DNA of 64,000 nucleotides, from NCBI GenBank assembly GCA_963921795.1, contig OY997640.1, positions 12,614,937 through 12,678,936 of the forward strand, read 5' to 3'. The position numbers and the translations under genes are program-made. Shown here piece by piece: positions 2,241 through 57,790 of this stretch. Positions within the stretch are counted from its first letter, which is position 1. Every line of letters starts with the position of its first letter. Origin of the DNA: Nannobrachium achirus (lineage: Eukaryota > Chordata > Actinopteri > Myctophiformes > Myctophidae). The notes beneath the pieces are model-generated. The model saw nothing but the letters and a program-made list of their open reading frames with translations, was not told the origin of the DNA and ran no database searches.

Positions 2241-2246
2241 GGGGGG

Positions 2247-32623: not shown

Positions 32624-32829
32624 GCTATGCTCTAAAGGTCAGATAAGCCGTTGAAGTCAAATAGCCTGGAAAATTGTTCAAGATTATTTGCAACCCTTAA
32701 TCCCTCTATAAACACATATAAATTGAAACACAAATAAGCCATAGGAAAAACACATTCTGGGCTGTCACATGAGCATTAGAATAAATGCATACAATAAACC
32801 CTTACACAACCATGAGCATTATATGGGAC

Positions 32830-37639: not shown

Positions 37640-38090
37640 TATTATCCTCAACTATTCATCATACCCTGAAGTTACGCGGGAACGCCTAGCGAGTGGCAAT
37701 AAACGACTTTCTGGCCTTGACAGCCCATACATCCAAACAGAAATGTCCTGTCTGATTGCATTAAACAACGTTGAAAACATGTTGCCACTCACTTTGCCAC
37801 CCGACTTGCCTGGCTCTGTGTTCATTGGAGGCCCCATGCAGCCAAGGCAGCTGGCCGTTGGAAACTAAACTGGGTTTCTGTGGTGGTACCTCTATGACAC
37901 CCAGACATGCTCTGCAGAGCACTTTTCTTCATGTATTTCTTATTTAAGTCATTCTCTTCAAGGCATTACAAAAAGGTAATGTACACTAAGCATGGAATGG
38001 CAGTTGGCCATTGCTCTGGGCTATTTGCAAATAATTCCTCAACAAACACATTGTGTTATGCAATGGAGTCCTCCTACAGTATATATTCCA
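37640..38090 (+). promoter_or_regulatory. Conserved upstream region and TATA box, histidine-rich gene copy 1
   Basis: About 400 bp conserved in all units. TATATATT at 38080-38087 lies about 25-30 bp before the expected start of exon 1 (near 38110). The same TATA and flanks are at 46743-46750 and 54472-54479. Frames through this block (SGLDSPYIQTEMSC...) are broken by indels in unit 2, so it is regulatory or passive, not coding. Confidence 0.6.
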
Positions 38091-38109
38091 GTAGCTACAG
38101 TAGGTCAGG

Positions 38110-38175
38110 TAGTCAGAACCTCAGAATAGGTGAAGACACCCTCCAAGGAGAAAGAACGTCCACAAACTACCGGAG
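38110..38175 (+). other. Exon 1 (non-coding) of histidine-rich gene copy 1
   Basis: Inferred start from the TATA distance. It ends at CCGGAG followed by donor GTGAGC at 38176. Intron 1 is 162 bp and ends in TTTTTGCTTACAG at 38337. Confidence 0.55.
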
Positions 38176-38340
38176 GTGAGCTCAATATTGGCTTGTTAGT
38201 ATGCTTATTAAAATTACATTAATTATGCTCAATGTTCCTATAATTAATTGGCCATGTACACGGTCTGTAACAGACCCAATAGCAGCCACAGTCATATACA
38301 TTACTGACATCTTTTTTTAAATTGTTTTTGCTTACAGAAA

Positions 38341-39453
38341 ATGAAGACCCAAATTGGGTTCCTGCTCTTTGCTCTGTTGGTCATTGTCAGTGGCGCAGCA
38401 GGGCAAAATGTGAACGCTGCGGATCCACTGCCCCATCTTCATCACCACGGTGGAGAGCCCCATCTTCATCACCATGGTGATCCACTGCCCCATCTTCACC
38501 AGCCCCATCTTCACCACCATGGTGGAGAGGATGAGATGGCTGATCCACTGCTCCATCATCACCGCCACGGTGGAGAGGACCAGATGGCTGATCCACAGTC
38601 CCATCATCACCGCCAGAATGAGATGGCTGATCCAGAGGCCCGTCATGGTGGCCATCATGGTGGCCACCATGGTGGCCACCGCGAGCACCATCAGTTCCAC
38701 CGTTACCAGGACGAGATGGCTGATCCTCAGCCCCATCATCACCGCCACGGTGGAAAGGATGAGATGGCTGATACGGAGCATCGTCACGGTGGCCATCGTG
38801 GTGGCCACCGCGGGGACCATCAGTTCCACCGTTACCAGCGTTACTGGGACGAGATGGCTCATCCACAGCCCCATCATCACCGCCAGAATGGGATGGCTGA
38901 TCCAGAGCATCGTCATGGTGTCCATCATGGTGGCCACCGCGGGTACCAACGGTTCCACCGTTACCACCGTCACTGGGACGAGATGGCTGATCGACAGGGG
39001 TCCATGGCATTGGGCCTACAGCACATTAGTCCGAAACTGTTGAATGCTAACCTGATGAATTGTAACACTAACCCTAACCCTAACCAATGTACGACCAATG
39101 GGCATCATCACCGCCACGGTGGAGAGGATCAGATGGCTGGCCATGGTGGCCATCATGGGTTCCACCGTGACCACCGTTACTGGGACGAGATGGCTGATCC
39201 ACAGCCCCGTCATCACCGCCACGGTGGAGAGGATGAGATGGCTGATCCACAGCCCCGTCATCACCGCCACGGTGGAGAGGATGAGATGGCTGATCCACAG
39301 TCCCGTCATCACCGCCACAGTGGAGAGGACGAGATGACTGATCCACAGTCCCGTCATCACCGCCACGGTGGAGAGGATCAGATGGCTGATCCAGAGCCCT
39401 GGGGACATAATGGTGGCCATAATGGTGGCCATCACGGGAACCACCATTACTGA
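38341..39453 (+). CDS. Histidine-rich secreted repeat protein, copy 1 (370 aa)
   Basis: I do not recognise this family. The ATG lies 3 bases after a splice acceptor (CTTACAG|AAAATG), and the whole protein sits in one exon (38338-39472) that ends at GAAG|GTGAGG. Residues 1-21 form a clear signal peptide (MKTQIGFLLFALLVIVSGAA). The rest is histidine-rich, built from two alternating degenerate modules: HHHRHGGEDEMADPQ (about 14 DEMADP-like cores between residues 63 and 350) and a Gly/His/aromatic module such as RFHRYHRYWDE. Residues about 219-254 are a non-repeat insert (SMALGLQHISPKLLNANLMN and onward) that includes translated telomere-like DNA. The C-terminus ends GHHGNHHY and lacks the YGWNPHGH...RYW tail of the other copies. 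Such proteins commonly bind Zn, Cu or Ni, but no function is shown here. Frame-preserving length differences between copies support coding. Confidence 0.75.
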   Translation: MKTQIGFLLFALLVIVSGAAGQNVNAADPLPHLHHHGGEPHLHHHGDPLPHLHQPHLHHHGGEDEMADPLLHHHRHGGEDQMADPQSHHHRQNEMADPEARHGGHHGGHHGGHREHHQFHRYQDEMADPQPHHHRHGGKDEMADTEHRHGGHRGGHRGDHQFHRYQRYWDEMAHPQPHHHRQNGMADPEHRHGVHHGGHRGYQRFHRYHRHWDEMADRQGSMALGLQHISPKLLNANLMNCNTNPNPNQCTTNGHHHRHGGEDQMAGHGGHHGFHRDHRYWDEMADPQPRHHRHGGEDEMADPQPRHHRHGGEDEMADPQSRHHRHSGEDEMTDPQSRHHRHGGEDQMADPEPWGHNGGHNGGHHGNHHY

Positions 39454-40553
39454 TAATCTTTTACAGGTGAAGGTGAGGACAGAAACACAACTTAAATGTA
39501 TTATAGTCGACAGCGCCTACATTTAGACTGAAACAGTTCATACAGCAGTTGTGGTAGATGGAAATATAAACCCAGCAGTCCAGAAGTCTTTGTAATAGCA
39601 TTGATTCATCAGTTGAGTGAATTTGTACAGCCTTTACTTTATTATAGGCTGTTAAATAATCATTTCTAATGCTATGTGTGATTAATGGCAACAAATACTG
39701 GATCAGCATGCTCTCTTGATTAATAGCTATAGAGTAACGAAGTCATGATGTCACTCGCTCATCCACCGGTTCACTGAAGTAATTTCTCTATGGAGAATAA
39801 TATTGAGTCATCTTAAAATCGTCTCATATAAGCGTTTTTGTCCAAAAAAAAAATCTTGTAAATCCACAGGGTTTTTTCCCTGTTTTGCCTTTCTAAGTTA
39901 TGGAGAATGGAGCGCATTTTTTGCTGAAACTCACAAATGGCATGAAATCATTCCATTTTTATTGAAAAGCAGAATCCACCTTCAAAGGTAGATTCAAAGT
40001 CAGAGAAGGTCATAAAAATAGCAAATGTTTTCCCTTATCCTCTTTTCATTACAGAAGCAAATGACTGAAAACTTTTTTTTTTTTTTTTATTTCTCTTACA
40101 AAGATTTTCTTCTCTCTTTTTTGTCTCTCGATATACAGTATATATTTAATACATCGATTTAAATTCACCAGCTTGAATCAATTTTGATTGGGTTACTATA
40201 AATCGTTACATGCCCTATGTGAGTCAGTTTACACAGCCATCTAAAAATGTATATTAATATTATTGTGTAACTTAAAAAAATAACTTTCATATTCTAGATA
40301 CATTGTGAATGCAATGAAATGTTCAAAATGGCAATGTCTTATGGCATACAGCTCATGAATATCAAAAATCCATATCTCAAAAGATTACAATATTACACAA
40401 GACGACTCAAAACATGCAGAAATGTCATCCTTCTGAAATCAAGCTGAAGTCCAGTGTGGAGTTTCTGCAGTCGGTGACGATTTGGAGTGCTATAGCATCG
40501 ACCCCTTTGTTTTTTTTTACACAATATTCTAATTGTTTTGGCTTCTCCCACAG

Positions 40554-40712
40554 CTCCACGAGGAAGACACCCAGAGGAACACCTAGACTGCAGTACCATC
40601 ACCGTCTTCAATAACATGAACCAACCACCATGTTTATTCATTGTTTGGTTGTGTGAGGTCACTGTTTCTCTGTTTGTCACGCTCCAATAAAAGCCATTTC
40701 ACTCAACTTGTA
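40554..40712 (+). other. Exon 3 (3' UTR) with AATAAA, copy 1
   Basis: The acceptor CTTCTCCCACAG ends at 40553. The exon begins CTCCACGAGGAAGACACCC, and a poly(A) signal AATAAA is at 40686-40691. The same exon exists in copies 2 and 3. It would be untranslated because the stop is in exon 2. Confidence 0.55.
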
Positions 40713-40784
40713 GGTGGTCTTGTTAATCCTGGTGGACATGCCAGTAAAACAAAGTGATATCAAAAGAGCTCATGCCTCGAGAAT

Positions 40785-40827
40785 AGAATAGAATAGAATA
40801 GAATAGAATAGAATAGAATAGAATACT
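40785..40827. repeat. GAATA pentamer array, unit 1
   Basis: About 8 units of AATAG. Equivalents are at 48768-48816 and, as a mosaic of GAATA, GAGCA and GAACA, at 57858-57956. Confidence 0.9.
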
Positions 40828-41417
40828 GTTGGCCAGTGGATGGTCATGATTATGGAGGCCTCAGTGGGAGAACTATTTATATTTGAAGTATAGTCGGGTG
40901 GTCCTTTGGGTCAAACACTATAGCCTTGAGATACAAATAAGATCTTGATTAACACACAGGTGACTAACAGGTCATTTTGACCGATTTTGAGATCACAAAG
41001 TGCATTAACTCTCCCCGTGAAGGTATCAGAAATGTCCCCTTTCAAGACTTTTCCTAAATACTCAAGACATAATTATGTTCTCGTTTTTCCCCTTCTGAAA
41101 TGTTTCCTAAATATGACATAATATACCATTATACCACTCTGACTGTTAGTTATCGGTCTTTCGATCATAATGACAAGTCTCACCCATTCCTCCCCCTCCC
41201 AGAAGCAAGGAGAGAATTTCACACCTTTTGCGCTCCCCATTTGAGAGGTCAATTGAAATGCTAATTCACATTGGAAGACAACAGGACCCCCGCTGACAGC
41301 AGGGGAGGAGGTGTTGCTCTTCTGGGCCAAAAGGGAGAGAATTTACCTGTCAATTTGACTGATTCATGCAGTCAGAGTGGAAGTGATATTTTTTTCAGTC
41401 TCCAGAGTGTTAAAAGC

Positions 41418-41421
<4 letters not shown>

Positions 41422-41514
<93 letters not shown>
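41422..41514. repeat. TA and GA microsatellite
   Basis: An AT array of about 50 bp followed directly by an AG array of about 40 bp. Confidence 0.95.
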
Positions 41515-41515
<1 letters not shown>

Positions 41516-41544
41516 ATGCTGGCAAGGGTGTCAATAGTACCCGA

Positions 41545-41690
41545 ATCAGCAGAAGGGGGTCTATAGATACGCACAATAATTAAAGATGATGATCCAAACT
41601 GAACTCTCAGGGACAGCCATTCAAAGGTTTTGAGACAGCATTTAAAAGGGTATTGAAATAAAGATTAGGTATCCGGGCTGGTTTAAAGGA
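41545..41690 (-). pseudogene. LINE endonuclease fragment, unit 1
   Basis: Matches 58180-58330 (see there): AATTAAAGATGATGATCCAA and CTCAGGGACAGCCATTCAAA. Too short to carry a full domain. Confidence 0.55.
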
Positions 41691-42039
41691 GGAGTAGTAT
41701 CGGCCAGAATGCACGAAGAGAGGAAGAGATCCAGGTTTCTGATTTTATACCATGTTGTGGTTTTATTCTACAAACAAATACATAGAAATACATAATACAA
41801 TTAAACAATTAATACCATAATACACCAATTGACAACATCTAATACGATACTCCAGCAATCAAACTATCTAAAGGTCAGTTATTACAACATTTCCTTGACT
41901 ACATAACGGTGTTGCCTCCATTGCTGCTGCCAAACATGACTGAACACTCAGGCAGGTTATATAGTCTGTCAATAATTGGTTTGTTTGTTGTTTTGTTTGA
42001 TTGTTTTTTAATAGTATGCTGATTACTGTGAATAAATGG

Positions 42040-42330
42040 TTGTCTAGCAGAAATATGGAGAATGTAATAGGCCGGGGGGGTTCGGGGAAGCAGAGATATG
42101 ACACAAAGCGGCAGGATCCATAAGATTAAGGCTAGATTAAGGCTAGCTGAGGTAGATATCGATTTGGAATGATATCATGGTACCTCTGGTCCATAGCGTT
42201 AGTGGAGTTCTCCCTAACACTATGTTCTTCTACCTCCGCTCCAGCTTGGCAAAACCGGAAAACCATTTGGTCTGGTCCGAAAATAACAAAAACTGTTTCG
42301 CTACACACCAAACCAAAGGTATCAGTGTGG
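42040..42330. repeat. Repeat shared with unit 3 3' flank
   Basis: GAATGTAATAGGCCGGGGGG and GGTCCGAAAATAACAAAAAC recur at 58730-58960. Part of the duplicated unit, not identified further. Confidence 0.6.
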
Positions 42331-43050
42331 AGTTGAAAGCTTACTCTACTTAGTGGACCCAGTCTGGGCCCCCCACCACACGCTTAAAATACATTTCTAG
42401 GGTGAAATAAAAAATATTCCACCGGATGGAGACTCCATTTCTTCTAGTTTTTCACTATTTGTCGTCGCCATCACAGCGCCAACTCATTATACTGCCGCGC
42501 AGGTCAGAGGACAGCATTAACAGACCATTAGTCTTGTTGGGTGTTAATTCAGCTCTGCAACATTGGAAGCACTGTTTGTATTTTTCATTTCGCCCTAGAA
42601 ATGTATTTCAAGTGTAAAAATGTTTTGTGAGGAAAAGGTTGCAATCAGCCCTGAACAATGTCCTGTTTGACACTATAGCTGCTCATCCACGTATCAAAGT
42701 TCTATTCAGTAATATCAATGATTTACTTGATATAAAATGTTTGGATCATTTTATCATCTACGCAGGCTTTTGTGAGCCCCTCAGTTTTTAAGTTGCTCGA
42801 TTCAGTATTTATATATTTGATAATAATTTGATCAAACCCGACCCCTCCCTATACTGTACAAACCCCTTTGTATCTTCAAACACATTTTTAACCATGTTAG
42901 ATCACTGATATTGTCCTTCTAATGTGTGAGGGGGCCGTGTTTTTCCAATTACTTTTTTTTCATCACCCCAAAGAGAGTGTTTTTTTTTTTTTACCTTTGC
43001 TCCCCTAGGCGAGCTAAAAGATATATCAGTAAATATTTACACATTTCCCA

Positions 43051-43516
43051 TTAACTCATCCACTACATTGGACGAGTTTGACGAGCTATAGTTATGGGTC
43101 CACTCTGCTTATGACGAATATGACGAGCTATCAATTAGCTTTAATAACTATAAAACAAAAAAGTATGATCGCCGATTCGCCGTCCATAGCGCTCTGTGGA
43201 CTCGCCCTATTCACAAAAAACGGATCTGGATGTTCCAGAACGGAAATGGGGGGGCGGGACAACGACGCCTGTATCCTGTCTGCCGAAATATCATCCGGTT
43301 CAATGTTGTGCAACACCAGCGTGGCGCTCCGTCGGTTTCGCTTTGAGCGATGGAAGGCTGTAGTGCTTTGTTGCTTACCCTGCCTGGATCGTATTGTGAA
43401 TGCAATCGGTGAACCATCGCGCAATGGATTCGCGCGCGCGCCCACGTTAAAGGTAGGCAAAATCCTGGCGGTGTGGACCCTCAGAAGGGTCTTAAAAATA
43501 GCGGTGGGTGAGTTAA
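43051..43516. mobile_element. TTAA-flanked element with matching empty site
   Basis: A 458-bp element, ends CTCATCCAC / GTGGGTGAG, between TTAA at 43051-43054 and 43513-43516. The undisturbed target CCCATTAATTCTGGATG is present at 62451 in unit 4, so the insertion and its TTAA duplication are directly visible. The 151-residue frame inside (43078-43533) has no transposase motif and reads out of the element; I do not call it a gene. Confidence 0.85.
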
Positions 43517-44007
43517 TTCTGGATGTTTCCTAACAATGGAAATTATCAGAATGTATTCAAGACAAGGGGCAGTGAAAATATGATTGTTTAAAAAAAAGTG
43601 GTCTTGTGTCTCACTTTACCCCAGTTCAGGGGTAAACTGAGACAGATGAGAGAAATCAAGGGGGTAAAGTGAACCGGGTACATTTGCGGCACATGAGGAT
43701 TCATAGGGGGTAAAGTGAGACATGTTTTTACATTTTGCTCCCCTCTAGGCGAGGTAAAAGATATATCAGTAAAAATGTACACATTTCCCATTCATTCTGG
43801 ATGTTTCCTATTGGAAATGATCAGATGTCAGATCACTTTACCCCAATGCATTTGTCTTATTTTCCCCCCCAGCCACATTTTGGGAAAAAGGACGGGGGCG
43901 TTTCACTGTTTCTACGTGTCATCTTTTCGACACCCAAACCTAACACTTACCCTAACCTCCGTAGGGTGAGTCGCTAACCCTTCCGACGCTCCGTTGTCGA
44001 AATACTG

Positions 44008-44010
<3 letters not shown>

Positions 44011-44090
<80 letters not shown>
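44011..44090. repeat. CA microsatellite
   Basis: About 39 uninterrupted AC dinucleotides, preceded by telomere-like phrases (CCTAACACTTACCCTAACC) near 43938. Confidence 0.95.
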
Positions 44091-44093
<3 letters not shown>

Positions 44094-44129
44094 ATATATA
44101 CATATATATATATACATTTATATATTGAG

Positions 44130-44387
44130 CATTTTCTAATATTTTGTGGAAAGACGTGAGACGACAAATTCTGAACAGAACTGGTATTTTATTATTTTTT
44201 TTGCCAGTAGTTGTGACTGAGTTTGTGACTGATCAGAGTGATCAGCCACAAACTGGTGACAAAATGGTGATCAGTGATCACCATCTATGAAGATGAACAA
44301 AAAAAAATAAAAACAACCATGCATTAATGCTTAAATTAAATGGCTTTACATCAGGAATAGTACTGTAATAATTTCTTTCTTTCTTTC

Positions 44388-44475
<88 letters not shown>

Positions 44476-44878
44476 AATTAACTAATTTGAGTGATATTGT
44501 ATTTTTTTTGCATGGGCAAACATGGACAGCAGTAGGCTATTGCTAGCTTCATGTAATTATTCTAATGGCCATGTGACAGGCCAGAGTGGGGCTATTTGCT
44601 CATGTTTTTGTATACTTGCATTTAAACAAAGAATGTTTAGTGAGGAAAAGGTTGCAAACAGCCCTGAGCAGTGGCCTGTTTGACACTACTGTAGCTGCTT
44701 ATCCATGTATCAGACATGGTTCTCACGTAAAGGCTTATATTATTATTGCTATATTATTATATTGCTTTTAGGCTGTTCAGTAATATGCCAAATAGCCGTG
44801 ATAATGCACACCCTCTCTTGTAATATTGCTTAAATAAGTGTTAATTGGCTTTATATTAGGAATAGTACTGTAATAATT

Positions 44879-44922
<44 letters not shown>

Positions 44923-46250
44923 TAGTTTAACTAATTTGAGTGTTATTGTATTTTTTTACATGGGCAAACATGGACAGCAGTATTGCTAGCTTTATGTAAT
45001 TATTCTAATGGCCATGTGGCAGGCCAGAGTGGGGCTATTTGCTCATGTTTTTTTTTTTTTTGCATACTTCCGTTTAAACAAAGAATGTTTAGTGAGGAAA
45101 AGGTTGCAAACAGCCCTGAGCAGTGGCCTGTCTGACACTACTGTAGCTGCTTATCCATGTATGAAACATGGTTCTCACGTAAATTGCTTTTAGGCTGTTC
45201 AGTAATATGAATGATTTGACTTAAAGGGATATTTCACATTCAAAAAAAGTTTGGATCCCCCGGTTTGTAAGTTGCTCGAATCAGTATTTATAGAATTATA
45301 TATTTGATGTCTTAAAACTATAATCCAAAAGGGGTCCCCCAATTTGTTGTGCCGGGATGGCAAGCAGAGGAACGCTCAAATAACAAGGCGCAAGTTGGCA
45401 CCTCGACAGAGGACATACGTGAACTAAAATCAACAGGGTTTTCTCTAGGGGTGTAACGATATAGTAACTGTATCGGAATATCGTTTTTAACTTAAAGAAA
45501 TTGAAGTATATCGAAATGAAAACAGCTAAAATCAAATCGTATTGTTTAATTACTTTTCCTTTCCATATAGCTACACTGGTCTATCGATAAATGTGTGTAA
45601 TCTCTGGGTTCATGTCAAGGTGCAGGTTTGTCAATATACAATGTCCATGAATTTGGCAGATAATGACTGTGTTTACTTATTTATATCCCTAATAATACAT
45701 CTTTTACTTTTTGCCAACACTTTTATACTTTTACACTAGTACATTTTTAATTCCATACTTCTACTTGTAACAGAGTATTTCTATAATGTAGTATTGCTTT
45801 TACTTAAAGAGGTGGTGCCATAGTTTTGTACTTTTTCTGTTTTTCATGTGTCTAGGAGGTTGAAAGTACTTCATTAGACCCCCTTATGTGTGTGTTTTTT
45901 TTTTTAGAAATGATTATTCTCTTAGTATTTGTTTGTTTTCTCTTGGAGGCTGCCACCTTGTGGTGAAAAGTGTCAGTTAAAAAACACAGATAAGATGACA
46001 TCACAGAATCAACTCCTCCCCTATTTACCATTCACCCAACACTGTGGGGTGTGGCTATATCAGCTGGGTCACCACCCACCATGCCATCCATGCATACTTA
46101 ATGAACTGGGGGTGTGTCCACATAAAAACCCAATTCTAACTCTTTCTGTATACTTTTTTGGAAAAAATCTTCCTCCTAGTATAATCATAATACCTGATAA
46201 TCATGTTTTAGAGGGGGGGGGGGGGGGGGGAATCATGGCACCACCTCTTT
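44130..46250. repeat. Upstream part of unit 2
   Basis: Starts GAGCATTTTCTAATATTTTG, matching unit 1 at 35365. Holds two CTTT arrays, the GAGGAAAAGGTTGC sub-repeats, a truncated MITE (about 45700-45803) and, at 45808-46250, the inverted sister of the AGAGGTGGTG element of 32194-32619, here with a G-run and only the left TTAA (45804-45807). Confidence 0.7.
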
Positions 46251-46742
46251 CTTTTTATCAAATTGACCACACCAATGACCATAACAGGTCTGCAACACTG
46301 AGATCAGACCTGTAGGGTCCATTTGGTACATAATCATATGATGTTATGCGGGAACGCCTACCGAGTGGCAATAAATACTTTCTGGCCTTGACAGCCCATA
46401 CATCCAAACAGAAATGTCCTGTCTGATTGCATTAAACAACGCTGAAAACATGTTTTTGCCACCCGACTTGCCTGGCTCTGTGTTCATTGGAGGCCCCATG
46501 CAGCCAAGGCAGCCGAGAGTTGGAAACTTGGTTTCTGTGGTGGTACGCCACCTCTATGACACCCAGACATGCTCTGCAGAGCACTTTTCTTTATGTATTT
46601 CTTATTTAAGTCATTCTCTTCAAGGCATTTACACAACAGTAATGTACACTAAGCATGGAATGGCAGTTGGCCATTGCTCGGGGCTATTTGCAAATAATTC
46701 CTCAACAAACACATTGTGTTATGCAATGGAGTCCTCCTACAG

Positions 46743-46838
46743 TATATATTCCAGTAGCTACAGTAGGTCAGGTAGTCAGAACCTCAGAATAGGTGAAGAC
46801 ACCCTCCAAGGAGGAAGAACGTCCACAAACTACCGAAG
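46743..46838 (+). promoter_or_regulatory. TATA box and exon 1, histidine-rich gene copy 2
   Basis: TATATATT at 46743-46750. Exon 1 is inferred from about 46775 to 46838 (ends CGAAG, donor GTGAGC at 46839). Intron 1 ends CTTACAG at 46993. Confidence 0.55.
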
Positions 46839-46996
46839 GTGAGCTCAATATTGGCTTGTTAGTATGCTTATGAGAATTACATTAGTTATGCTCAATGTTC
46901 CTATAATTAATTGGCCATGTACATGGTCTGTAACAGACCCAATAGCAGCCACAGTCATTTACTGACAGCTTTTTTAAATTGTTTTGCTTACAGAAA

Positions 46997-47653
46997 ATGA
47001 AGACCCAAATTGCGTTCCTGCTTTTTGCTCTGTTGGTCATTGTCAGTGACGCAGCAGAACAAAATGGGAAAGCTGCAGATCCACATCCCCATCACCACCA
47101 CCACCATGGTGGAGAGGATGAGATGGCTGATAAACAGCCCCATCATCACCGCCACGGTGGAGAGGATGAGATGGCTGATCCACAGTCCCATCATCACCGC
47201 CACGGTGAAGAGGATGAGATGGCTGATCCAGATCCACGTAATGGAGGCCATCATGGTGGCCACCGCGAGCACCATCGGTTCCACCGTTACCACCGTTACT
47301 GGGACGAGATGGCTGATCCAAAGCCCCATCATGGTGGCCACCGCGGGTACCATCGGTTCCAACGTTACCACCGTTACCGGGACGAGATGGCTGATCCACA
47401 GCCCTATCATCACCGCCACGTCGGAGAGTATGAGATGGCTGATCTAGAGCCCCGTCATGGTGGCCATCATGGTGGCCACTGCGGGTTCCAGCGGTTCCAC
47501 CGTTACCACTGTTTCTGGGACGAGATGGCTGACCGCCACCGCCACGGCGGAGAGGATCAGATGGCTGATCCAGTGCCCTGGGGACATCATGGTGGCCCTC
47601 ACGGGTACGGATGGAACCCCCATGGGCATCTCGGGTACCACCGTTACTGGTAA
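46997..47653 (+). CDS. Histidine-rich secreted repeat protein, copy 2 (218 aa)
   Basis: Same design as copy 1. I chose the ATG at 46997, 3 bases after the acceptor and equal to the start of the other copies; upstream in-frame codons belong to the intron. Signal peptide MKTQIAFLLFALLVIVSDAA, then about 8 DEMADP-like cores alternating with HHHRHGGE and GYHRFQRYHRYRDE modules. The C-terminus is YGWNPHGHLGYHRYW, followed by TAA. Unlike copy 3 it has two cysteines in the mature part. The exon (46994-47669) ends at GAAG|GTGAGG. Differences from copies 1 and 3 include many in-frame gains and losses of modules. Function unknown; secreted metal binding is a guess from composition. Confidence 0.75.
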   Translation: MKTQIAFLLFALLVIVSDAAEQNGKAADPHPHHHHHHGGEDEMADKQPHHHRHGGEDEMADPQSHHHRHGEEDEMADPDPRNGGHHGGHREHHRFHRYHRYWDEMADPKPHHGGHRGYHRFQRYHRYRDEMADPQPYHHRHVGEYEMADLEPRHGGHHGGHCGFQRFHRYHCFWDEMADRHRHGGEDQMADPVPWGHHGGPHGYGWNPHGHLGYHRYW

Positions 47654-48541
47654 TCTTTTACAGGTGAAGGTGAGGACAGAAACACAACTTAAATGTATTG
47701 AAACAGAAGATGGAAATATAAACCCAGCAGTCCAGAAGTCTTTGTAATAGGATTCATCAGTTGAGTGAATTTGTACAGCCTTTACTTTATTAGAGGCTGT
47801 TAAATAATCGTTTCTAATGCTATGTATGAGTAATGGCAACAAGTACAAGTACCTTTCTATGTTGTATGGAGAATGGAGCGCAATGTTTGCAGACACTCGC
47901 AAATGGCATGATCATTCCATTCTTATTGAAAAGCAGAATCCACCAGGTAGATTCAAAGTCAGAGAAGGTCATAAAAATATCAAATGTTTTCTCTTATCCT
48001 CTTTTCATTACAGAAGAAAATGACTGAAAACTTTTTTTAATCAATTCTCTTACAAAGATCTTCTCTCTTTTTTGTCTCTCGATATAAAGTATATATTTAA
48101 TACATCGATTTAAATTCACCAGTTTGAATCAATTTTGATTGGGTTACTATAAATCATTACATGCCCTATGTGAGTTGGTTTACACAGCCATCTAAAAATG
48201 TATATTAATATTATTGTGTAAATTAAAAAAAAATTTAAAACGTTCATATTCTAGATACATTGCGAATGAAACGAAATATTCAAAATGGCAATTTCTTATG
48301 GCATACAGCTCATGAATATCAAAAGTCCATCTCTCAAAAGATTACAATATTACGCGAGACGACTCAAAACATGCAGAACTTCAAAACAAGGATTTATAAT
48401 GCAGAAATGTCATCCTTCTGAATCAGAGTTGCTTGAAGTCCAGTGTGGAGTTTCTGCAGTCGGTGACGATTTGGAGTGCTATAGCATCGACCCCTTTGTT
48501 TTTTTTACACAATATTCTAATTGTTTTGGCTTCTCCCACAG

Positions 48542-48702
48542 CTCCACGAGGAAGACACCCAGAGGAACACCTAGACTGCAGTACCATCACCGTCTTCAAT
48601 AACATGAACCAAACCACCATGATTATTCATTGTTTAGTTGTGTGAGGTCTCTGTTTCTCTGTTTGTCACCCTCCAATAAAAGCCATTTCACTCAACTTGT
48701 AG
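48542..48702 (+). other. Exon 3 (3' UTR) with AATAAA, copy 2
   Basis: Follows the acceptor CTTCTCCCACAG (ends 48541). AATAAA is at 48675-48680. Nearly identical to exon 3 of copy 1. Confidence 0.55.
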
Positions 48703-49079: not shown

Positions 49080-49250
49080 TGAAAAGCGTAAGGGTGTCAA
49101 TAGTACCCAAATCAGCTGAAGGGGGTCTGTAGATACCCACAATAATTAAAGATGATGATCCAAACTGAACTCTCAGGGACAGCCATTCAAACACTTAGGT
49201 TTTTGAGACAACATTTAAAAGGGTATTGACATAAATTTTGGGTATCAGGG
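49080..49250 (-). pseudogene. LINE endonuclease fragment, unit 2
   Basis: Same sequence as in units 1 and 3 (AATTAAAGATGATGATCCAA and neighbours), so the LINE inserted before the units duplicated. Confidence 0.5.
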
Positions 49251-49257
49251 CTGGTTT

Positions 49258-49560
49258 AAAGGAGGGGTAGCTTCAACATGGTTGCATCGGCCAGAAAATA
49301 AGGGTTTTTCATGATGCTGAATCCATTGCAAGCATTTGTTTTGCACGAAAAACATTCCATGGGCTACACATTGCCCCCACAAAACGGTGAAAAGTGATGA
49401 TTCATCACTAAACCATCGTTTTGTGGGTCCAATTTTAGCCCAAGGAATGTTTTTCGTGCAAAACAAATGCTCGCAATGGATTCAGCATCATGAAAAAACC
49501 CTAGTTTTGACCCCTCACATGCTACTTAAAGCAGATTTATTTTTTGTATTATTTTCCTGT
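49258..49560. mobile_element. Fold-back element (family of 56.8-57.7 kb)
   Basis: A palindrome centred near 49393. Both strands read GCAAAACAAATGC and ATTCAGCATCATGAAAAA, so both strands encode the same short artefact frame. Related to the long inverted repeats of 56838-57675. Confidence 0.7.
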
Positions 49561-49856
49561 ATAGTAAATTAATGGGACGCAAACACAAATCAGTTTTTGT
49601 ATGAGGTTTCCCCCAGGAGTTGAATTTCAACCTTTTAGTACATATTATTACACACCTTTAGAAACACATTGGTGAAGAAATTTCTTGGTAACGATTTACT
49701 TCGCAGATTGGTCAAATATCTTATAAAATCTCCTTACTACAAGAGTTCTTCATGCATGAGAACCAATCAGCTCCCACCTCTCTCATTGATGAAGGGAAAC
49801 TCAATCACACCTGGAAAAAAAAAGCCAGAATCAGATGTTCTTATAGTGGATGGATC

Positions 49857-50313
49857 ATCTATGGCAAACATGGGCAACTGGCGGCCCGGGGGCCACATGT
49901 GGCCCTCACCTTCACTTAATGCGGCCCACAGGTTAGTACCTGAATACTGATATATTGTTGATTTCAGCTGTTACAATTCCAAAACTTGACCTGCTTTAAT
50001 TCCGTCAGTCTATATTAGTAGCTTAATATGACTAGTATATAATAGTAGTATTAAAATGTATTTTTTTATGTCCAATGTACATGTATTTAGGTTCATAAAG
50101 TTAACTAAATGCGTTTGAAATTAAATCAAAATGTTACATTTCAGGATTCCAATTCAAAAATAACAAAACAATTATTCCAGGATTCCAATTCAAAAGAAGC
50201 TTCGTTTGTATGAGATACTGGAATGACAAAGTAGGACGTAGCAATGTGGCCCTCTGGAGTGAAGGTGGAAATATAGTGGCCCTCATCAATGTTGCCCACC
50301 CCTTATCTATGGT
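49857..50313. mobile_element. hAT-type MITE with perfect 8-bp TSD ATCTATGG
   Basis: Element 49865-50305, ends CAAACATGGGCAACTGG / TGTTGCCCACCCCTT, flanked by ATCTATGG at 49857-49864 and 50306-50313. It contains GCGGCCC-rich phrases and an internal ATTCCAATTCAAAA direct repeat. A relative is near 63040-63230. Confidence 0.85.
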
Positions 50314-50319
50314 GAATAC

Positions 50320-51470
50320 ACTGCCACCACATTCTATCAAGACATTTGATGAATATGCAATAGATGACATACTTACTGGACATAGAGGCGGACAGACATT
50401 GTGTTCGTTGTTTACTGGAAGTCAAGTCTGAAGTGTGAGGCAAGGTCAAAACGGGAAAATTGGAGTTGACCAAATGTGGGTGAACCAAGGCATGTACTGG
50501 AAGGTGTAAGCGCTTCAGATATGGACTCAGTTGCACATGCCTATGTACTGTAGTTGCCCCTGCTAGAACCTATTTGCATGTTTCTTTTGCCAGAGTTATT
50601 GTCCTCTGTGTTTTCAGGTGTAGGCCTGTGGCTCAGCTTCCCTGTCACATCAACGCATCGTGTTTTACTTTCTCACCTGCTATTACTGTGACACTTTCAG
50701 TTGTTAACATTGCTTCCACTGCACATTTTCAGTTTAGGTCCTCAGTATCGTTTCCGTTTGCAATGGTTCCGTGGCTGTGTCAGCCAAAGCTGCTGCTGCA
50801 TCATTCAGTATTGCTCAATACTTATTTTGGAGCACTGTCCGTTCAGCACCACAACTGTGCTAATTTATTCATCTTATTTTCTCCCCATCCCTTAATATTT
50901 GACAAATGTTAGTTAAAATGTTAGTTAACCCTAGCCCTGTTAGTTAACTCTTATACCGCTTTGGACGTTCCTGTTCGCCCCAATTCCCAAGAGACCTCCG
51001 CGCCAATACGGCGCTCGTTCGCGTTCGTTCGTTCGTTCATTTACCTTGTTGAAGCTGATGAGGGGTCGCGCCGCCGTGTACTGTAAACACATTTTCCGCG
51101 GTGATGGTGTAAAAAATCCATTATGCGTTAACATCAACGGAGACCAATTCACTTCCTTGTTGATTTCTCTGGCTGTGAGGCTCTGTGGCCAGTGACTGGT
51201 CTGAATGCACGTAACAGGGAAATCACATTCATTCTCAGCATGACGCCGCCCTCTGCTGCCTGGCAGACCAAAGTGCACTATTGCACAATCAAAAAATAAT
51301 AATAATAATGAAATAAATAAATGTCTATCTATCTACTATAACGTCGCAAAGGTAAGCCGCTTTTTGATGGCACCAGACACAATAAATAAATAAATAATCT
51401 GGCAGTAGGAGAGTTAAAAAAAAATAAAAAAAATAAAAAATAAAAAAAATAAAAAACAGGGAAAAAAACT
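50320..51470. other. Gene-free stretch
   Basis: No gene is recognised. 50940-51410 has ends AGTTAACTCTTATA and GGAGAGTTAA that may be inverted repeats of one element; short TTCG and A-rich arrays are inside. Confidence 0.4.
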
Positions 51471-51660
51471 CCCTTGTGACTGTTACCTTGTCGTGGTTAG
51501 GGAGTGTACCTCAGTGAACCCTGAGAGCTATTCCGGTGGGAGGCAACCCCTGGCAGGTTTTACCAAACTGGACAGGTTGTGGGCGAGGAGTCAGACAAAT
51601 TACAGTCAAACAACCTCCCTTGAGCGAGCCTTTTGAAGAACCCAATAAACTTCTGTGAGG
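51470..51660 (+). repeat. Segment resembling a fish retroelement 5' region
   Basis: Contains ACCTTGTCGTGGTTAGGGAG, CTGAGAGCTATTCC and AACCCCTGGCAGG, a phrase order I know from the 5' end of a fish non-LTR element family. Identity is not certain. Confidence 0.35.
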
Positions 51661-51689
51661 ATATGTTTAATTTAAAGATCAACGTAGTG

Positions 51690-52125
51690 GGCGGAAGTCA
51701 TCCTGAAAAATCTTGAAATTTCAAGTAGCTGTGGGGGGCTTATTGTCAAGTGACCCACAGAGACGGCTCATGGCAATTTTCATGCTTGTATCACCAAATA
51801 AACCAGTATATCACTTAACTGCTCCACTTAGGTGGTGACAAGCTTGAAAAATGGCCGCCATCTTGTAATTTCAGGTAGCTGCGTGTGGGTTATTGTTAAG
51901 TGACCCACAGAGACTGCTCGTGCCAATTTTCATGCTTGTATCACCAAATAAACCCTTATATCACTTAATTGCTTCACTACGGTGGTGGCCATCTTGAAAA
52001 ATGGCCGCCATCTTGAAATTTCAATTGGCTCTGACAATTTTCTTGTTAAGTGACCCATGGAGACTGCTCATACCAATTTTTACGCTTTTATCATCAACTG
52101 AAAGATTCTGACCAAAACAAGCAGT
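51690..52125. repeat. Three-copy tandem repeat, unit about 150 bp
   Basis: Each unit has CATCTTG(A/T)AATTTCA, TTGTTAAGTGACCCA(C/T)(A/G)GAGAC, TTTTCATGCTTGTATCACC and ATGGCCGCC. Not coding. Confidence 0.8.
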
Positions 52126-52139
52126 TAGCCGAGTGTTAT

Positions 52140-52589
52140 TGTATTTTTTACATGGGCAAACATGGACAGCAGTATGCTATTGTTAGCCTTATGTAACTAG
52201 ACCAGGTCAACCTGGTTGTGCCAGACCCCGGTTCTGCCAACCCTCTGGGCCTATAAATTTAATGGTACATTAACCCCCTGTCTGTCATCATCATTTATGA
52301 CATCATGCCTTTTGTAGGCATGTCATCATCATGTCATCATCATATATACCCTTTATATAGAAAACCCGGACAGACCGACATTTGCTTATGTAGGCCTACC
52401 CATTTCATGGGTCTGGCAATTATTCTAATAGCCAAATGACAGGCCAGAGTGGGGCTATTTGCTCATGTTTTTGCATACTTGCATTTAAACAAAGAATGTT
52501 TAGTGAGGAAAAGGTTGCACACCCTCTCTCGTAAAATTGCTTAAATAAGTGTTAAATGGCTTTACATTAGCAACAGTACAGTAATAATT

Positions 52590-52647
<58 letters not shown>

Positions 52648-53874
52648 TTTCTTTCTTTCGTTTAACTCATTTGAGTGTTATTGTATTTTTTTTTAAATGG
52701 GGAAATATGGACAGCAGTTTTGCTAGCTTTAGGTAATTATTCTAATGGCCATAGGACAGGCGGAAGTGGAGCTCATGTTTTTGCATACCGGTACTTGCGT
52801 TTAGACAAAGAATGTTTAGTGAGGAAAAGGTTGCGAACAGCCCTGAGCAGTGGCCTGTTTGACACTAGCTGCTTATCCATGTGTCAAACATGGTTCTCAC
52901 TTAAAGGCAGCTTATATTAATTGCTTTTAGGCTTTTAGGCTTTTTGCATACTTGCATACTTCCGTTTAAACACATAATGTTTAGTGAGGAAAAGGTTGCG
53001 AACAGCCCTGAGCAGTGGCCTGTTTGACACTAGCTGCTTATGCATGTATCAAACATGGTTCTCACACAAAGGCTTATATTCATTGCTTTTAGGCTGTTCA
53101 GTAATATCAATGATTTGACTTTCAAAAAATAATACAAATAAAAATAAATTGGATCCCCCAGTTTGTAAGTTGCTCGATTCAGTATCCATAAAATGATATA
53201 TTTTGATGTCTTACTACTGTATGCCGAAAGGGGTCCCCCAATTTGTTGTGCCAGGAAGGCAAGCACAGGAACACTCAAATAACACTAATAACAAGGCACA
53301 AGTTGGCACCTCGACAGAGGACATGCGTGAACTAAAATCAACAGGGTTTTCGCCCACAATATTCTCCACAGGCATGGCCACGTTATAGGCTATCTTTCCT
53401 ACCGACTTACATGATGAGTAATTGAACTTTCCCAAAGATTTTGATGTCATGCTTCACGTGACATCAAATTATACCTACCCTAACCCATTTTACTGCTATA
53501 ATCCCACTATATTTTACAAGTTTTCCAAGTTGTAAATTTCCAAGTTTCAATACTTTTACTTCTACTCCACTACATCTTGGATCCAAATATTGTATGTTTA
53601 CTCCACTACAATTATTTGAAAACTGTAGTTACTTTGCAGGTATAAATTATAAGATTTTAAAACATACATAAACCACATTAGCCCTATTTTATAACATGGA
53701 AAACAGCCTTTCTCAAACATTTTGTACTTTTACTTTTGGTACTTTAAGTAACTATGTATCGATGCCAATACTTTTAGAAGAGTAGATTTTTTTATTCCAT
53801 ACTACTTGTAACAGAGTATTTCTATAATGTCGTATTGCTTTTACTTAAGTAATACATTCAAGTGCTTTTTTCCA
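52140..53874. repeat. Upstream part of unit 3
   Basis: Same order as unit 1: GGGCAAACATGGACAG, CTTT array (52588-52660), paired GAGGAAAAGGTTGC sub-repeats, then the MITE without its palindrome (about 53510-53874). Confidence 0.7.
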
Positions 53875-54471
53875 CCACTGATTGTGAACTTGTAGAATAG
53901 TTTGGGTTTGGGTTCCGTGCCGGGTCATCGCCATGTTGGCTTGAGGTGGAACATTTTGTCAAAATTGACCACACCAATGACCATAACAGGTCTGCAACAC
54001 TGAGATCAGACCTGTAGGGTCCATTTGGTAGATAATCATACCCTGAAGTTATGCGGGAACGCCTACCGAGTGGCAATAAACGACTTGCTGGCCTTGACAG
54101 CCCATACATCCAAACAGAAATGTCCTGTCTGATTGCATTAAACAACGTTGAAAACATGTTGCCACTCACTTCGCCACCCGACTTGCCTGGCTCTGTGTTC
54201 ATTGGAGGCCCCATGCAGCCAAGGCAGCTGGGAGTTGGAAACTGGGTTTCTGTGGTGGTACGCCACCTCTATGACACCCTGACATGACACCCAGACATCT
54301 GCAGAGCACTTTTTTATGTATTTCTTATTTACCGGTAAGTCATTCTCTTCAAGGCATTTACAGAACAGTAATGTACACTAAGCATGGAATGGCAGTTGGC
54401 CATTGCTCGGGGCTATTTGCAAATAATTCCTCAACAAACACATTGTGTTATGCAATGGAGTCCTCCTACAG

Positions 54472-54569
54472 TATATATTCCAGTAGCTACAGTAGGCCAG
54501 GTAGTCAGAACCTCAGAATAGGTGAAGACACCCTCCAAGGAGGAAGAACGTCCACAAACTATACCGAAG
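54472..54569 (+). promoter_or_regulatory. TATA box and exon 1, histidine-rich gene copy 3
   Basis: TATATATT at 54472-54479. Exon 1 from about 54503 to 54569 (ends CGAAG, donor GTGAGC at 54570). Intron 1 ends CTTACAG at 54708 and is 139 bp, shorter than in copy 1. Confidence 0.55.
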
Positions 54570-54711
54570 GTGAGCTCAACATTGGCTTGTTAGTATGCTT
54601 ATGCTCAATGTTCCTATAATTAATTGGCCATGTACACGGTCTGTAACAGACCCAATAGCAGCCACAGTCATATACTGACAGCTTTCTTTCAATTGTTTTT
54701 GCTTACAGAAA

Positions 54712-55311
54712 ATGAAGACCCAAATTGCGTTCCTGCTCTTTGCTCTGTTGGTCATTGTCAATGGCGCAGCAGGGCAAAATGGGAACGCTGCGGATCCACT
54801 GCCCCATCTTCATCACCATGGTGATCCACAGCCCCATCTTCACCACCATGGTATAGAGGATGAGATGGCTGATCAACAGCCCCATCATCACCGCCACGGT
54901 GGAGAGGATGAGATGGCTGATCCACAGACCCATCATGGTGGCCATCATGGTGGCCACCGCGAGCACCAACGGTACAACCGTGACCACCGTCATTGGGACG
55001 AGATGTCTGACCCACAGCCCCATCATCACCGCCACGGTGGAGAGTATGAGATGGCTGATCCAGAGCATCGTCATGGTGGCCATCATGGTGGCCACCGCGA
55101 GTACCAACGGTTCCACCGTGACCACCGTTACTGGGACGAGATGTCTGAGCCACAGCCCCATCATCACCGCCACGGTGGAGAGTATCAGGTGGCCGCTCTG
55201 GAGCCCTGGGGACATCATGGTGGCCATCGTGGTGGCCATCAGGGGTACGGATGGAACCCCCATGGGCATCACGAGTACCACCGTAACCAAGATTACCACC
55301 GTTACTGGTAA
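54712..55311 (+). CDS. Histidine-rich secreted repeat protein, copy 3 (199 aa)
   Basis: Shortest copy. Signal peptide MKTQIAFLLFALLVIVNGAA, then two PHLHHHG motifs, about 6 DEMADP-like cores (some changed to DEMSDP or YQVAAL), and modules such as RFHRDHRYWDEMSEP. The C-terminus YGWNPHGHHEYHR...YHRYW resembles copy 2. By my count 44 of 199 residues are histidine. The mature part has no cysteine. The exon is 54709-55327; here the alternative donor CAG|GTGAAG of copies 1 and 2 is lost (CAAGTGAAG) while GAAG|GTGAGG remains, which identifies the used donor. Exon 3 follows after a 1.4-kb intron. Function unknown. Confidence 0.75.
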   Translation: MKTQIAFLLFALLVIVNGAAGQNGNAADPLPHLHHHGDPQPHLHHHGIEDEMADQQPHHHRHGGEDEMADPQTHHGGHHGGHREHQRYNRDHRHWDEMSDPQPHHHRHGGEYEMADPEHRHGGHHGGHREYQRFHRDHRYWDEMSEPQPHHHRHGGEYQVAALEPWGHHGGHRGGHQGYGWNPHGHHEYHRNQDYHRYW

Positions 55312-56724
55312 TCTTTTACAAGTGAAGGTGAGGACAGAAACACAACTTAAATGTATTATAGTCAACAACGCCTATATTTAGACTGAAACAGTTCATACAG
55401 CAGTTGTGGTAGATGGAAATATAAACCCAGCAGTCCAGAAGTTTTTGAAATAGGATTCATCATTTGAGTGAATTTTACAGCCTTTACTTTATTATAGGCT
55501 GTTAAATAATCATTTCTAATGCTGTGTGTGAGTAATGGCAACAAATACTGTATCAGCATGCACTGTTGATTAATAGCTATAGAGTAACGAAGTCATGACG
55601 TCACTCGCTCATCCACCGGTTTATAGAAGTAATTCTATGGAGAATAACATTGAGTCATCTTAAAATCGTCTCATATAAGCATTGTGGTCCAAAAATAAAC
55701 AAACGGTCGCCACGATATTGTCGGGAGAATTGATACAGTCTGTTTCTGGTGAAAATGTAACTAATTCAGTGACAGAAACTGATGGGAATTCAGAATGGGG
55801 GGGACGTGAACCAGGTAGGATGTGTAAATGACATCAAACTTTGTTATAGCAACTGAATCAACAGAATCAGGTAAAGATGAACTCAACTCACGATACAGAT
55901 ATGCTGCTTCAACTCTTCAGTATTTACTGCTCTTTTCCTGAAATATTCTTTCTAAACAGAAAAGAATTTATTTTCTGTTTTGCCTTTCTAAGTTGTATGG
56001 ATAATGGAGCGCATGTTTTGCAGAAACTTGCAAATGGCATGAAATCATTCCATTCTTATTGAAAAGCAGAATCCACCAGGTAGATTCAAAGTCAGAGAAG
56101 GTCATAAAAATATCAAATGTTTTCTCTTATCCTCTTTTCATTACAGAAGCAAATGACTGAAAACTTTGTTTTAATCAATTCTCTTACAAAGATTTTCTTC
56201 TCTCTTTTTTTTCTCTCGATTTACAGTATATGTTTAATACATCGATTTAAATTCACCAGCTTGAATCAATTTTGATTGGGTTACTATAAATCTTTACATG
56301 CCCTATGTGAGTCAGTTTACACAGCCATCTAAAATGTATATTAATATTATCGTGTAAATTAAAAAAAAATAACTTTCATTTTCTAGATACATTGCGAAAG
56401 CAATGAAATATTCAAAATGGAAATTTCTTATGGCATGCAGCTGATGAATATCAAAACTCACATCTCAAAAGATTACAATATTACAGGAGACGACTCAAAA
56501 CATGCAGAAATCCAAAACAAGGATTTATAATGCAGAAATGTCAACCTTCTGAAATCAGAGTTGCTTGAAGTCCAGTGTGGAGTTTCCGCAGTCGGTGACG
56601 ATTTGGAGTGCTATAGCATCAACCCCTTTGTTTTTTTTTACACAATATTCTAATTGTTTTTAGATTGCTCTGTATAATTTGCTGTTTGTTCTGTATCAAC
56701 GTGTTTTGTTGGCTTCTCCCACAG

Positions 56725-57790
56725 CTCCACGAGGAAGACACCCAGAGGAACACCTAGACTGCAGTACCATCACCGTCTTCAATAACATGAACCAAACCAT
56801 CATAGTCTAGATGGACAGGGGGGGTCTTCGTGCTTACTCCTTTAAAGGTATATTTTAAGATTCTGCCAGGTACCACCAAGCTGAAATATGTTCTCATGGG
56901 GTTCATTTGCAATGATTTCTTGCACCTACCCATTCACTTAATATACAGGGAAAAAAAGACCACCCAAATAAATCTTCTTTAAGTAGCATGTGAGGGGTCT
57001 AACTAGGGGTTTTTCATGATTCTGAATCAATGCTTGCAGCATTTGTTTTGCACAAGAAACATTCCTTGGGCTAAAGGGTCTGACCTACCTAAGAGACATG
57101 TATGTCTGTATGTTATGTCGGATCTACATATCTTTCTTTTACAGATTTGCACATCTATAATAATTTTCCTGTACAGAATGTTTTTCTTTCCTTCTATTCC
57201 TACTATTATTTTACTTGTAGGGAGGGGTGGGGGGGACGGGTGGATGGGAGAAAATATAAATACAAAGAGGTGTTTTTATTTCTATATTTCTATCCTTGTA
57301 ACCTAAACCTGTCTCTTTGAATTAAATATGTTTAGGGGAAAAAGAAAAAAAAAACGGCGACACAAAACTATGGTTTTGTGATGAAAAGTGATGAGTCATC
57401 ACTTTTCACAGTATTGCGGGGTCCATTAATAGCCTTAGGATTTTTTTTTTATTTTTTTTGTGCAAAACAAATGCTTGCAATCGATTCAGAATCATGAAAA
57501 AACCCTAGTTAGACCCCTCACACGCTACTTAAAGACGATTTTTTTGGGGGAGTCTTTCTTTTTCCTGTATAGGAAGTGAATGGGTAGGTGCAAGAAATCA
57601 TTACAAATGAACCCCATGAGAAAATATATCAGCTTGGTACCTGGTAGAATCTTAAAATATACCCTTCAAGGATTAAGAAAAAATAAAATAAAGACTACCA
57701 TGTTTTGTTTATTCATTGTTTGGTTGTGTGAGGTCTCTGTTTCTCTGTTTGTCACCCTCCAATAAAAGCCATTTCACTCAACTTGTAGGT
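56725..57790 (+). other. Exon 3 (3' UTR) of copy 3, split by a transposon
   Basis: The acceptor CCCACAG ends at 56724. The exon runs as in copies 1 and 2 to ATGAACCAAACCAT, is interrupted by the element at 56838-57675, and resumes at TTTATTCATTGTTTGG, with AATAAA at 57761-57766. The mature 3' UTR would be about 0.9 kb longer or processed differently. Confidence 0.6.
56838..57675. mobile_element. Long-TIR element in 3' exon of copy 3
   Basis: Inverted arms of about 230 bp (left from TTTAAAGGTATATTTTAAGA, right its inverse), covering TGCACCTACCCATTCACTT and TTTTTCATGATTCTGAATC. The core has no recognisable transposase. Absent from exon 3 of copies 1 and 2. Confidence 0.75.

Follow-up and report, generated by a model that had tools for sequence, protein, structure and literature searches.

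The window analysed here is a stretch of 64,000 nucleotides from the fish Nannobrachium achirus, lying on the contig that we call C3. Between 37.6 and 57.9 kb it carries three tandem units, each with one gene for a histidine-rich, putatively secreted protein. All three genes are on the + strand and follow a common plan: a promoter containing TATATAT, a non-coding exon 1, an exon 2 that holds the whole coding sequence (CDS), and an exon for the 3′ untranslated region (3′ UTR) with AATAAA. The original prediction had proposed this plan, together with matching splice sites and signal-like starts. We located the coordinates of every part in all three copies, and the splice sites and starts do match.

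In copy 1 the proximal promoter occupies 37966–38079. It belongs to a repeat family within the window, with counterparts at 46629–46742 (copy 2) and 54358–54471 (copy 3), and the promoter is still recognisable in a fourth gene, on contig C19. The TATA box and non-coding exon 1 follow at 38080–38175, where long conserved runs are common to the C19 gene. Exon 2 extends from 38338 to 39472 (CDS 38341–39453, 370 amino acids) and the 3′ UTR exon from 40554 to 40710 (AATAAA at 40686). The corresponding parts of copy 2 lie at 46743–46838, 46994–47669 (CDS 46997–47653, 218 amino acids) and 48542–48700 (AATAAA at 48675), and those of copy 3 at 54472–54569, 54709–55327 (CDS 54712–55311, 199 amino acids) and 56725–57790 (AATAAA at 57761). 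The 3′ ends of all three are estimated. An inserted element with long inverted arms (56833–57677, outer ends approximate, no strand assigned) splits the 3′ exon of copy 3, and its AATAAA therefore lies about 1 kb further on.

How are these exons joined? The TATA boxes stand at 38080, 46743 and 54472, and intron 1, about 140–160 bases long, begins at 38176, 46839 and 54570 in copies 1, 2 and 3, respectively. A further intron begins with GTGAGG at 39473, 47670 and 55328, roughly 20 bases after the stop codon. Since the stop lies so short a distance upstream of the last exon junction, nonsense-mediated decay would not be expected. All three copies agree fully in the initial 26 bases of their 3′ exon; allowing up to three mismatches, these bases occur nowhere else in the window, and shuffled sequences gave no occurrence.

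Two fragments flank the array. At 35125–35267 (+) there is an exon 1 and intron 1 remnant of an older copy, with 78–86% identity. At 63923–64000 (+) a promoter fragment, possibly of a further copy, shows 83–89% identity depending on the query; it abuts a run of N, which in the genome sequence fills 64001–66500, just past the end of the window. An inverted pair of 417 bases with 98% identity was also seen, one arm before the array (32213–32624) and the other inside it (45803–46219).

The encoded proteins contain 21.6, 20.2 and 22.1% histidine over their whole length in copies 1, 2 and 3; for copy 3 the original prediction had counted about 22%. All begin with a putative signal sequence, judged by eye, of the form MKTQI.FLLFALLVIV. 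Their bodies are built from a 16-residue A unit (DPQPHHHRHGGEDEMA and variants) and a 30-residue B unit (DPEHRHGGHHGGHREYQRFHRYHRYWDEMA and variants), which often alternate, and a distinct C-terminal part closes each protein. The predicted repetition of DEMAD and HHHRH modules is borne out by the counts: DEMAD occurs 7, 6 and 2 times, and HHHRH 3, 2 and 3 times. Copy 1 has a further 35 residues or so in frame, encoded by some 105 bases at approximately 38996–39102 in which TAACCC repeats occur. The acidic runs are short (EDE, GEEDE), and there are 2, 2 and 0 cysteines. Neither dibasic sites nor N-glycosylation sequons were found in copies 1–3. The calculated charge at pH 7.4 is −15.7, −7.8, −10.6 and −35.3 for copies 1–3 and the C19 protein, and at pH 5.5 it is +48.5, +27.8, +24.7 and +4.3.

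Has such a family been described? Pfam gave no family at E ≤ 1 for copies 1–3 and nothing convincing for the C19 protein or for eight exon pieces of the relatives described below; the best weak match among these pieces and proteins (E = 0.074) fell below the curated cut-off. The PDB, searched with the copy 3 sequence, contained no relative up to E = 10. In the open-access literature we found no paper on the family, motif searches returning one unrelated paper on a polymer. Two papers on fish ‘histidine-rich glycoprotein-like’ genes (PMC8147987, PMC7859520) concern genes annotated as HRG, with no sequence displayed in the portions available. In all of these searches the family stayed apparently undescribed, as the original prediction had it. 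Among contigs of viruses and prokaryotes no relative was confirmed, which is what one would expect of a gene from a vertebrate, and Rfam gave nothing at gathering scores across the window. A scan for sigma-70-type promoters was discarded as uninformative for vertebrate DNA.

Relatives elsewhere in the genome

We searched the genome (1.66 Gb, 564 contigs) for further members; loci outside the window are given as contig and position in Mb. A protein search with copy 3 yielded 13 matches, all of them within the three tandem loci and a single locus on C19. The C19 gene is intact and encodes 224 residues, 21% of them histidine and none cysteine. It starts as copies 1–3 do, is built from the units DPHHHHHHGGEDEMA and DPRKRKGEEDEMA, and carries poly-His and RKRK, with five RKRK sites between blocks. 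Its CDS ends slightly before the common end of copies 1–3.

How far has this unlinked gene diverged? Compared with the C3 genes, the signal part differs by 8–13% with no indel (insertion or deletion), the stretch from TATA box to exon 1 by 9–10% with small indels, the end of exon 2 by 0–5%, and the first part of exon 3 by 21–23%, again with no indel. Intron 1 has diverged by 23–26%, and the end part of intron 2 that was compared is not alignable.

A DNA search with exon 3 gave seven matches: the tandem genes (copy 3 in two pieces), the C19 gene, a 3′ remnant on C5, and a decayed copy at C3:23.34. In this copy the signal frame is broken and there are several stops, yet one can still recognise the signal part, the DEMAD units, an end in poly-His and some of exon 3. 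Between its signal part and its DEMAD units lies a 401-base gap with a donor-like start, GTAAAC. The four intact His-rich genes have no coding intron at this place.

With the C19 protein as query there were 27 matches; apart from the known genes these were low-identity, mostly repetitive frames, which we did not count. Weak matches on C13, C22, C12, C16, C10, C4 and C19:60.2 were rejected as members (16–42% identity, several with stops); C13:14.47 is the only one of them to reach into the query's signal part (E = 0.45). Other pattern matches, on C11 and C20, showed no His-rich gene at the one locus inspected on each.

The signal exon reaches much further than the His-rich proteins. A search with the stretch from promoter to signal gave 19 matches, several limited to the end of intron 1 plus the signal exon. 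A search with one of these, on C20, returned 30 matches. Five are the tandem genes, the C19 gene and the decayed copy; the other 25 include the query itself and some partial matches. These 25 sit on C1, C5–C9, C11, C14, C16, C20, C21 and C71. The original prediction of a tandem family thus stands for the three copies in the window and falls short in extent, there being a fourth intact gene on C19 and a large dispersed family with the same signal exon.

We read 11 of these loci, 10 from the 25 and one, C21:58.59, from the promoter-to-signal search. In 11 of 11 the signal exon, which we call the export exon, is open; it encodes a signal peptide of the type MK(I/T)..LLFA.LATINAAAVQNVKAADKP, follows an acceptor before the ATG and ends in a phase-1 donor, though the exons were located by a pattern requiring an acceptor AG, ATGAAG and a GTA donor, so that those features are present by construction. 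The signal exon is homologous to that of the His-rich genes and has the same acceptor, and the ratio of nonsynonymous to synonymous differences per site (pN/pS) over the 11 loci is 0.55 (bootstrap 0.31–0.94). None of the members read is histidine-rich.

What follows the export exon? At six of the 11 loci a second, acidic exon was seen in the flank fetched. A search with the acidic exon of C7:14.33 gave 27 matches (query included), 26 of them without stops and many beside export-exon matches. We read 14 acidic exons in all, at the six export-exon loci and at eight more of these matches; at relatives' loci, some listings of stretches took in only those above a set length. A recurring part is KAADLPEAGEDMAETQ.HEGED-like, and at C14:40.19 and C21:58.59 there is just a looser repetition of acidic ED. 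In four of the 14, no more than 12 bases separate the end of the frame from a GTGAGG donor, a distance that is about 20 bases in the window genes. At C14:40.19 the frame continues into a long Lys-rich repeat.

The tails of the acidic exons vary: GFSCLMSRYGCGK, SFSCLMSKYGCGK, SFSCLMSKRCYG, AWFDSLLKG, DFCDKHPEFCPISPRG, AKVLCKHIPSWCG, YAHYAGW, RKCIQRHPMANDLCVIWE, FLAWSILLEHALNHLFG and HRKRPYIL. Three start with FCA.HP.IC and then enter microsatellite codons; the tails of C14:52.8, C1:58.94 and C1:58.97, which enter Leu/Tyr microsatellite codons, may overrun the true end. A pattern FC..HP..C is common to four tails (C14:52.8, C1:58.97, C1:58.94 and C6:14.7) and may mark a class of two-cysteine peptides. 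The tail HRKRPYIL belongs to an acidic frame that accompanies a signal exon at C21:58593000–58595000; we take its end, KRPYIL, to resemble the C-terminus of neurotensin. A search with this acidic exon returned one match, itself.

Are the His-rich genes a branch of this family? Against the four His-rich proteins the acidic exon of C7:14.33 scores z = 6.2, 4.5, 4.0 and 5.4, a level reached by 0, 0, 1 and 0 of 500 shuffles. Of the five acidic stretches compared in this way, four had been cut by hand beforehand. The His modules may be related to the acidic exon, a link that is significant for one of those five exons. In a tree of 16 signal-exon rows the four His-rich genes and the decayed copy fall on one side (support 83/86).

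Export-exon and acidic-exon matches form local clusters at C1:58.94–58.97, C7:14.29–14.35 and C14:13.06–13.07. At C8:48.216–48.218 and C20:42.319–42.321 the signal-exon stretches are identical over 168 bases, each with a TATA and exon 1 piece about 2.1 kb upstream; this may be either a recent duplication or an assembly duplicate.

Frame conservation

Are the three long frames genes, or accidents of a repeat? Several frames of the repeat DNA are open, on both strands; because it is so poor in stops, we do not take the long frames alone as proof. The better evidence for real genes is the absence of frameshifting indels together with the unlinked C19 gene. Pairwise comparison of the coding exons gave 7, 10 and 5 indels, 22 in all, none of them frame-breaking and every one a multiple of three, though pairwise counts depend on one another and any gain or loss of whole repeat units is bound to be a multiple of three. 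This agrees with the earlier proposal that the three frames differ by in-frame module changes. Non-coding segments behave otherwise: there, 53 of the 74 indels counted between pairs were not multiples of three.

We also simulated neutral change, with frameshift and substitution rates that we set near the non-coding values: the three copies stayed free of frameshifts in 0 of 20,000 runs, and at lower rates in a fraction of 0.00025 of the runs. No stop arose in a fraction of 0.11–0.23, so the absence of stops is the weaker argument. The indel comparison makes an ordinary minisatellite unlikely, in our judgement.

Among copies 1–3 substitutions are commoner in the coding exon (13–21%) than in the introns (4–10%), partly because non-equivalent modules become aligned. 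The 5′ flank and promoter diverge by just 2.7–3.8% between copies, as against 5–7% in intron 2b. In the signal region pN/pS is 0.70–0.80. We conclude that frame and composition are kept in copies 1–3 while residues drift.

Candidate roles of the histidine-rich proteins

What might these proteins do? The reading that we prefer, tentatively and with slightly less than even confidence, is that the three genes and the C19 gene encode secreted, disordered, His- and acid-rich proteins switched by metal and pH, and form one branch of the export-exon family. The proteins would alternate acidic (GEDEMADP) spacers with His/Arg-rich cargo blocks. An ancestral export-exon gene may have gained a poly-His end, as seen in the decayed copy, and may then have lost the intron between its signal and acidic parts. 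Tandem amplification of the acidic spacer with its His block would have led to the C19 gene, and addition of the aromatic-basic B unit to the tandem genes on C3. Once secreted, the His blocks would bind Zn2+ or Cu2+ and switch the protein's charge, which for copy 3 is calculated to run from about −11 at pH 7.4 to +25 at pH 5.5. The protein would then turn cationic, binding membranes or polyanions in acid or metal-rich sites such as mucus or wounds. Secretion, metal binding, tissue and function we infer from sequence, as the original prediction did in listing possible metal-binding, mucus, egg-coat or antimicrobial roles; an epithelial surface as the site of action is a guess by analogy.

AlphaFold returned a mean predicted local distance difference test score (pLDDT) of 49 and a predicted template modelling score (pTM) of 0.17, with no confident structure past the signal helix, and the His-rich proteins are predicted to be intrinsically disordered.

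Several observations weigh against the metal- or pH-switch reading and the descent that it assumes. The AlphaFold alignment had three rows, and the low confidence may also reflect this shallow depth. At five of the 11 export-exon loci the fetched flanks showed no acidic exon, and 10 of the 14 acidic exons lack a GTGAGG donor at up to 12 bases from the stop. The other four of the five acidic exons compared match the His-rich proteins no better than shuffles do (16 of 16 comparisons). Support in the tree is modest, its bootstrap is unsettled, and most inner forks are without resolution. Finally, pN/pS in the modules is about 1: over all pairs it is 0.97 for A and 1.09 for B, with other frames at 0.49–1.92, and on tree-reduced edges it is 0.82 and 1.16. 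Residue-level constraint on the His blocks is not seen, pN/pS being no lower than in other frames. The original prediction had named a ratio of nonsynonymous to synonymous substitution rates near 1, combined with frameshifted orthologues in related species, as a sign against it. The ratio in the modules is of that kind; the three genes are not frameshifted, and the source genome holds a decayed copy 10.7 Mb away in addition to these three intact ones.

A wider proposal, which we regard as possible rather than probable, is an exocrine system of many hypervariable peptides, several with two cysteines and one neurotensin-like, all joined to a common export exon and an acidic pro-exon. It would be a fish counterpart of the amphibian skin peptide genes. 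Poly-His would be one cargo, amplified with its spacer into metal- and pH-switched polyproteins. Amphibian skin peptide genes have a common export exon and variable ends. Like the precursors of the caerulein, xenopsin and levitide type, the fish family combines a conserved signal exon with differing peptide exons, an acidic pro-part and variable C-terminal peptides, and the member ending in KRPYIL presumably resembles the neurotensin/xenopsin class. The likeness lies in the gene plan. The His-rich branch is unlike those precursors in its tandem spacer–cargo repeats and in having no intron after the signal part.

If expressed, the genes would represent a multigene family for secreted peptides and proteins in a vertebrate, one of which our searches found no description. 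They would also lay open a path from single-peptide precursors to His-rich polyproteins, marked by a common signal exon, intron loss, amplification and a decayed intermediate. Such a family may offer a way to study the origin of new secreted, possibly metal-responsive proteins, and would supply short peptides, one of them neurotensin-ended.

The nearest rival to the metal- or pH-switch reading, in our view an unlikely one, is that of host-defence peptide precursors, in which acidic spacers would keep a cationic or His-rich cargo from acting before proteolysis or acid releases it. The export exon with variable C-terminal peptides in the relatives fits this, as do the five RKRK sites between the blocks of C19; copies 1–3, on the other hand, are without a dibasic site. 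An antimicrobial precursor cleaved at dibasic sites was rejected for copies 1–3 for this reason, a rejection that does not cover C19. Taken as a helix, the B segment exceeds shuffles in amphipathicity in six of eight instances (P < 0.05 without correction); with the strand angle, 160 degrees, 0 of 8 do so. Against this, the AlphaFold model of copy 3 has no helix at the B modules, residues 91–94 excepted, the one helical-looking tail of a relative that was tested, that of C6:50.4, is no more amphipathic than shuffles (P = 0.32), and the net charge at pH 7.4 is negative. Could the frames have no function at all, being accidental openings in minisatellite-bearing duplicates of a stop-lacking repeat? 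Long open frames in other registers, a pN/pS about 1, decayed copies and remnants, and repeat-unit changes that are inherently multiples of three would all suit that account. It is nevertheless highly improbable: no small frameshifting indel occurs across three coding exons, the signal part and splice sites are preserved in an older, unlinked paralogue, and the promoter is better conserved than the introns.

Two rivals would assign the proteins to known kinds of His-rich protein. A structural or adhesive protein of the extracellular matrix, cross-linked through His and metal in the manner of the worm-jaw protein Nvjp-1 and serving, for example, in egg coat or cuticle, seems to us improbable. 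In the available excerpt of one source the Nereis jaw protein Nai11527 has 29% Gly, 16% His and a signal peptide, and His/Gly-rich jaw proteins of Nereis bind Zn (PMC13120676). By that description the fish proteins are alike in being rich in His and Gly, in forming a paralogous family and in their putative secretion; acidic blocks are interspersed in them, however, as spacers, and the sibling frames read encode short peptides, C14:40.19 excepted. We think it very unlikely that they are Ca- or Zn-buffering proteins of a secretory compartment, of the HRC type. HRC, according to the accessible part of its description, likewise has a signal peptide and tandem repeats that alternate His-rich and acidic parts (PMC6171002). 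The copies are far smaller than HRC and their acidic runs (EDE, GEEDE) much shorter than its 10–11 residues, they have 0–2 cysteines where HRC has a Cys cluster, and they lack a Pfam match. Neither HRHRGH with 10–11 acidic residues per repeat in the units nor a C-terminal Cys cluster is present in copies 1–3 and C19.

Does the preferred reading, of metal- and pH-switched proteins, have a precedent? The proposed action would be that of the His-rich region of HRG, which is reported to behave similarly: its repeats switch charge with metal and pH, as stated in the available portion of the source, and the tandem His-rich repeats here would likewise be expected to bind Zn2+ and to switch charge with pH (PMC5372734). 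Unlike HRG, the fish genes have their whole CDS in one exon and no N-glycosylation sequons. The two N-terminal cystatin domains of HRG were not found (no Pfam family at E ≤ 1 for copies 1–3, and for C19 just an unrelated match at E = 4.5), and its GHHPH repeat occurs 0 times in copies 1–3.

The SCPP family (histatins, MUC7, fish SCPPs) was also compared. SCPP introns are of phase 0, unlike the phase 1 in which the signal exon ends in 11 of 11 relatives, and the window genes have no coding intron. No SCPP neighbour gene was identified among the window's only partly annotated neighbours. There is likeness in the signal peptide encoded by a second exon and in changes of repeat number within the coding exon, as described for MUC7 in the available text (PMC4997351).

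Neighbouring features of the window

An intronless frame of 342 amino acids for NAXD (NAD(P)H-hydrate dehydratase) lies at 24660–25688 (+). On C22, NAXD is split over seven matching pieces (65–91% identity, one piece with a stop); the frame in the window therefore looks like an old, open retrogene. Head to head with it, about 0.4 kb away, is an intronless TPR frame of 580 amino acids at 22484–24226 (−), with TPR as its only Pfam match. We take this frame to resemble TOMM70, and it is possibly a second retrogene. At 403–5152 (−) open frames match a tyrosine recombinase (Phage_integrase) and, weakly and below the cut-off, a reverse transcriptase; presumably this is a DIRS/Ngaro-like element.

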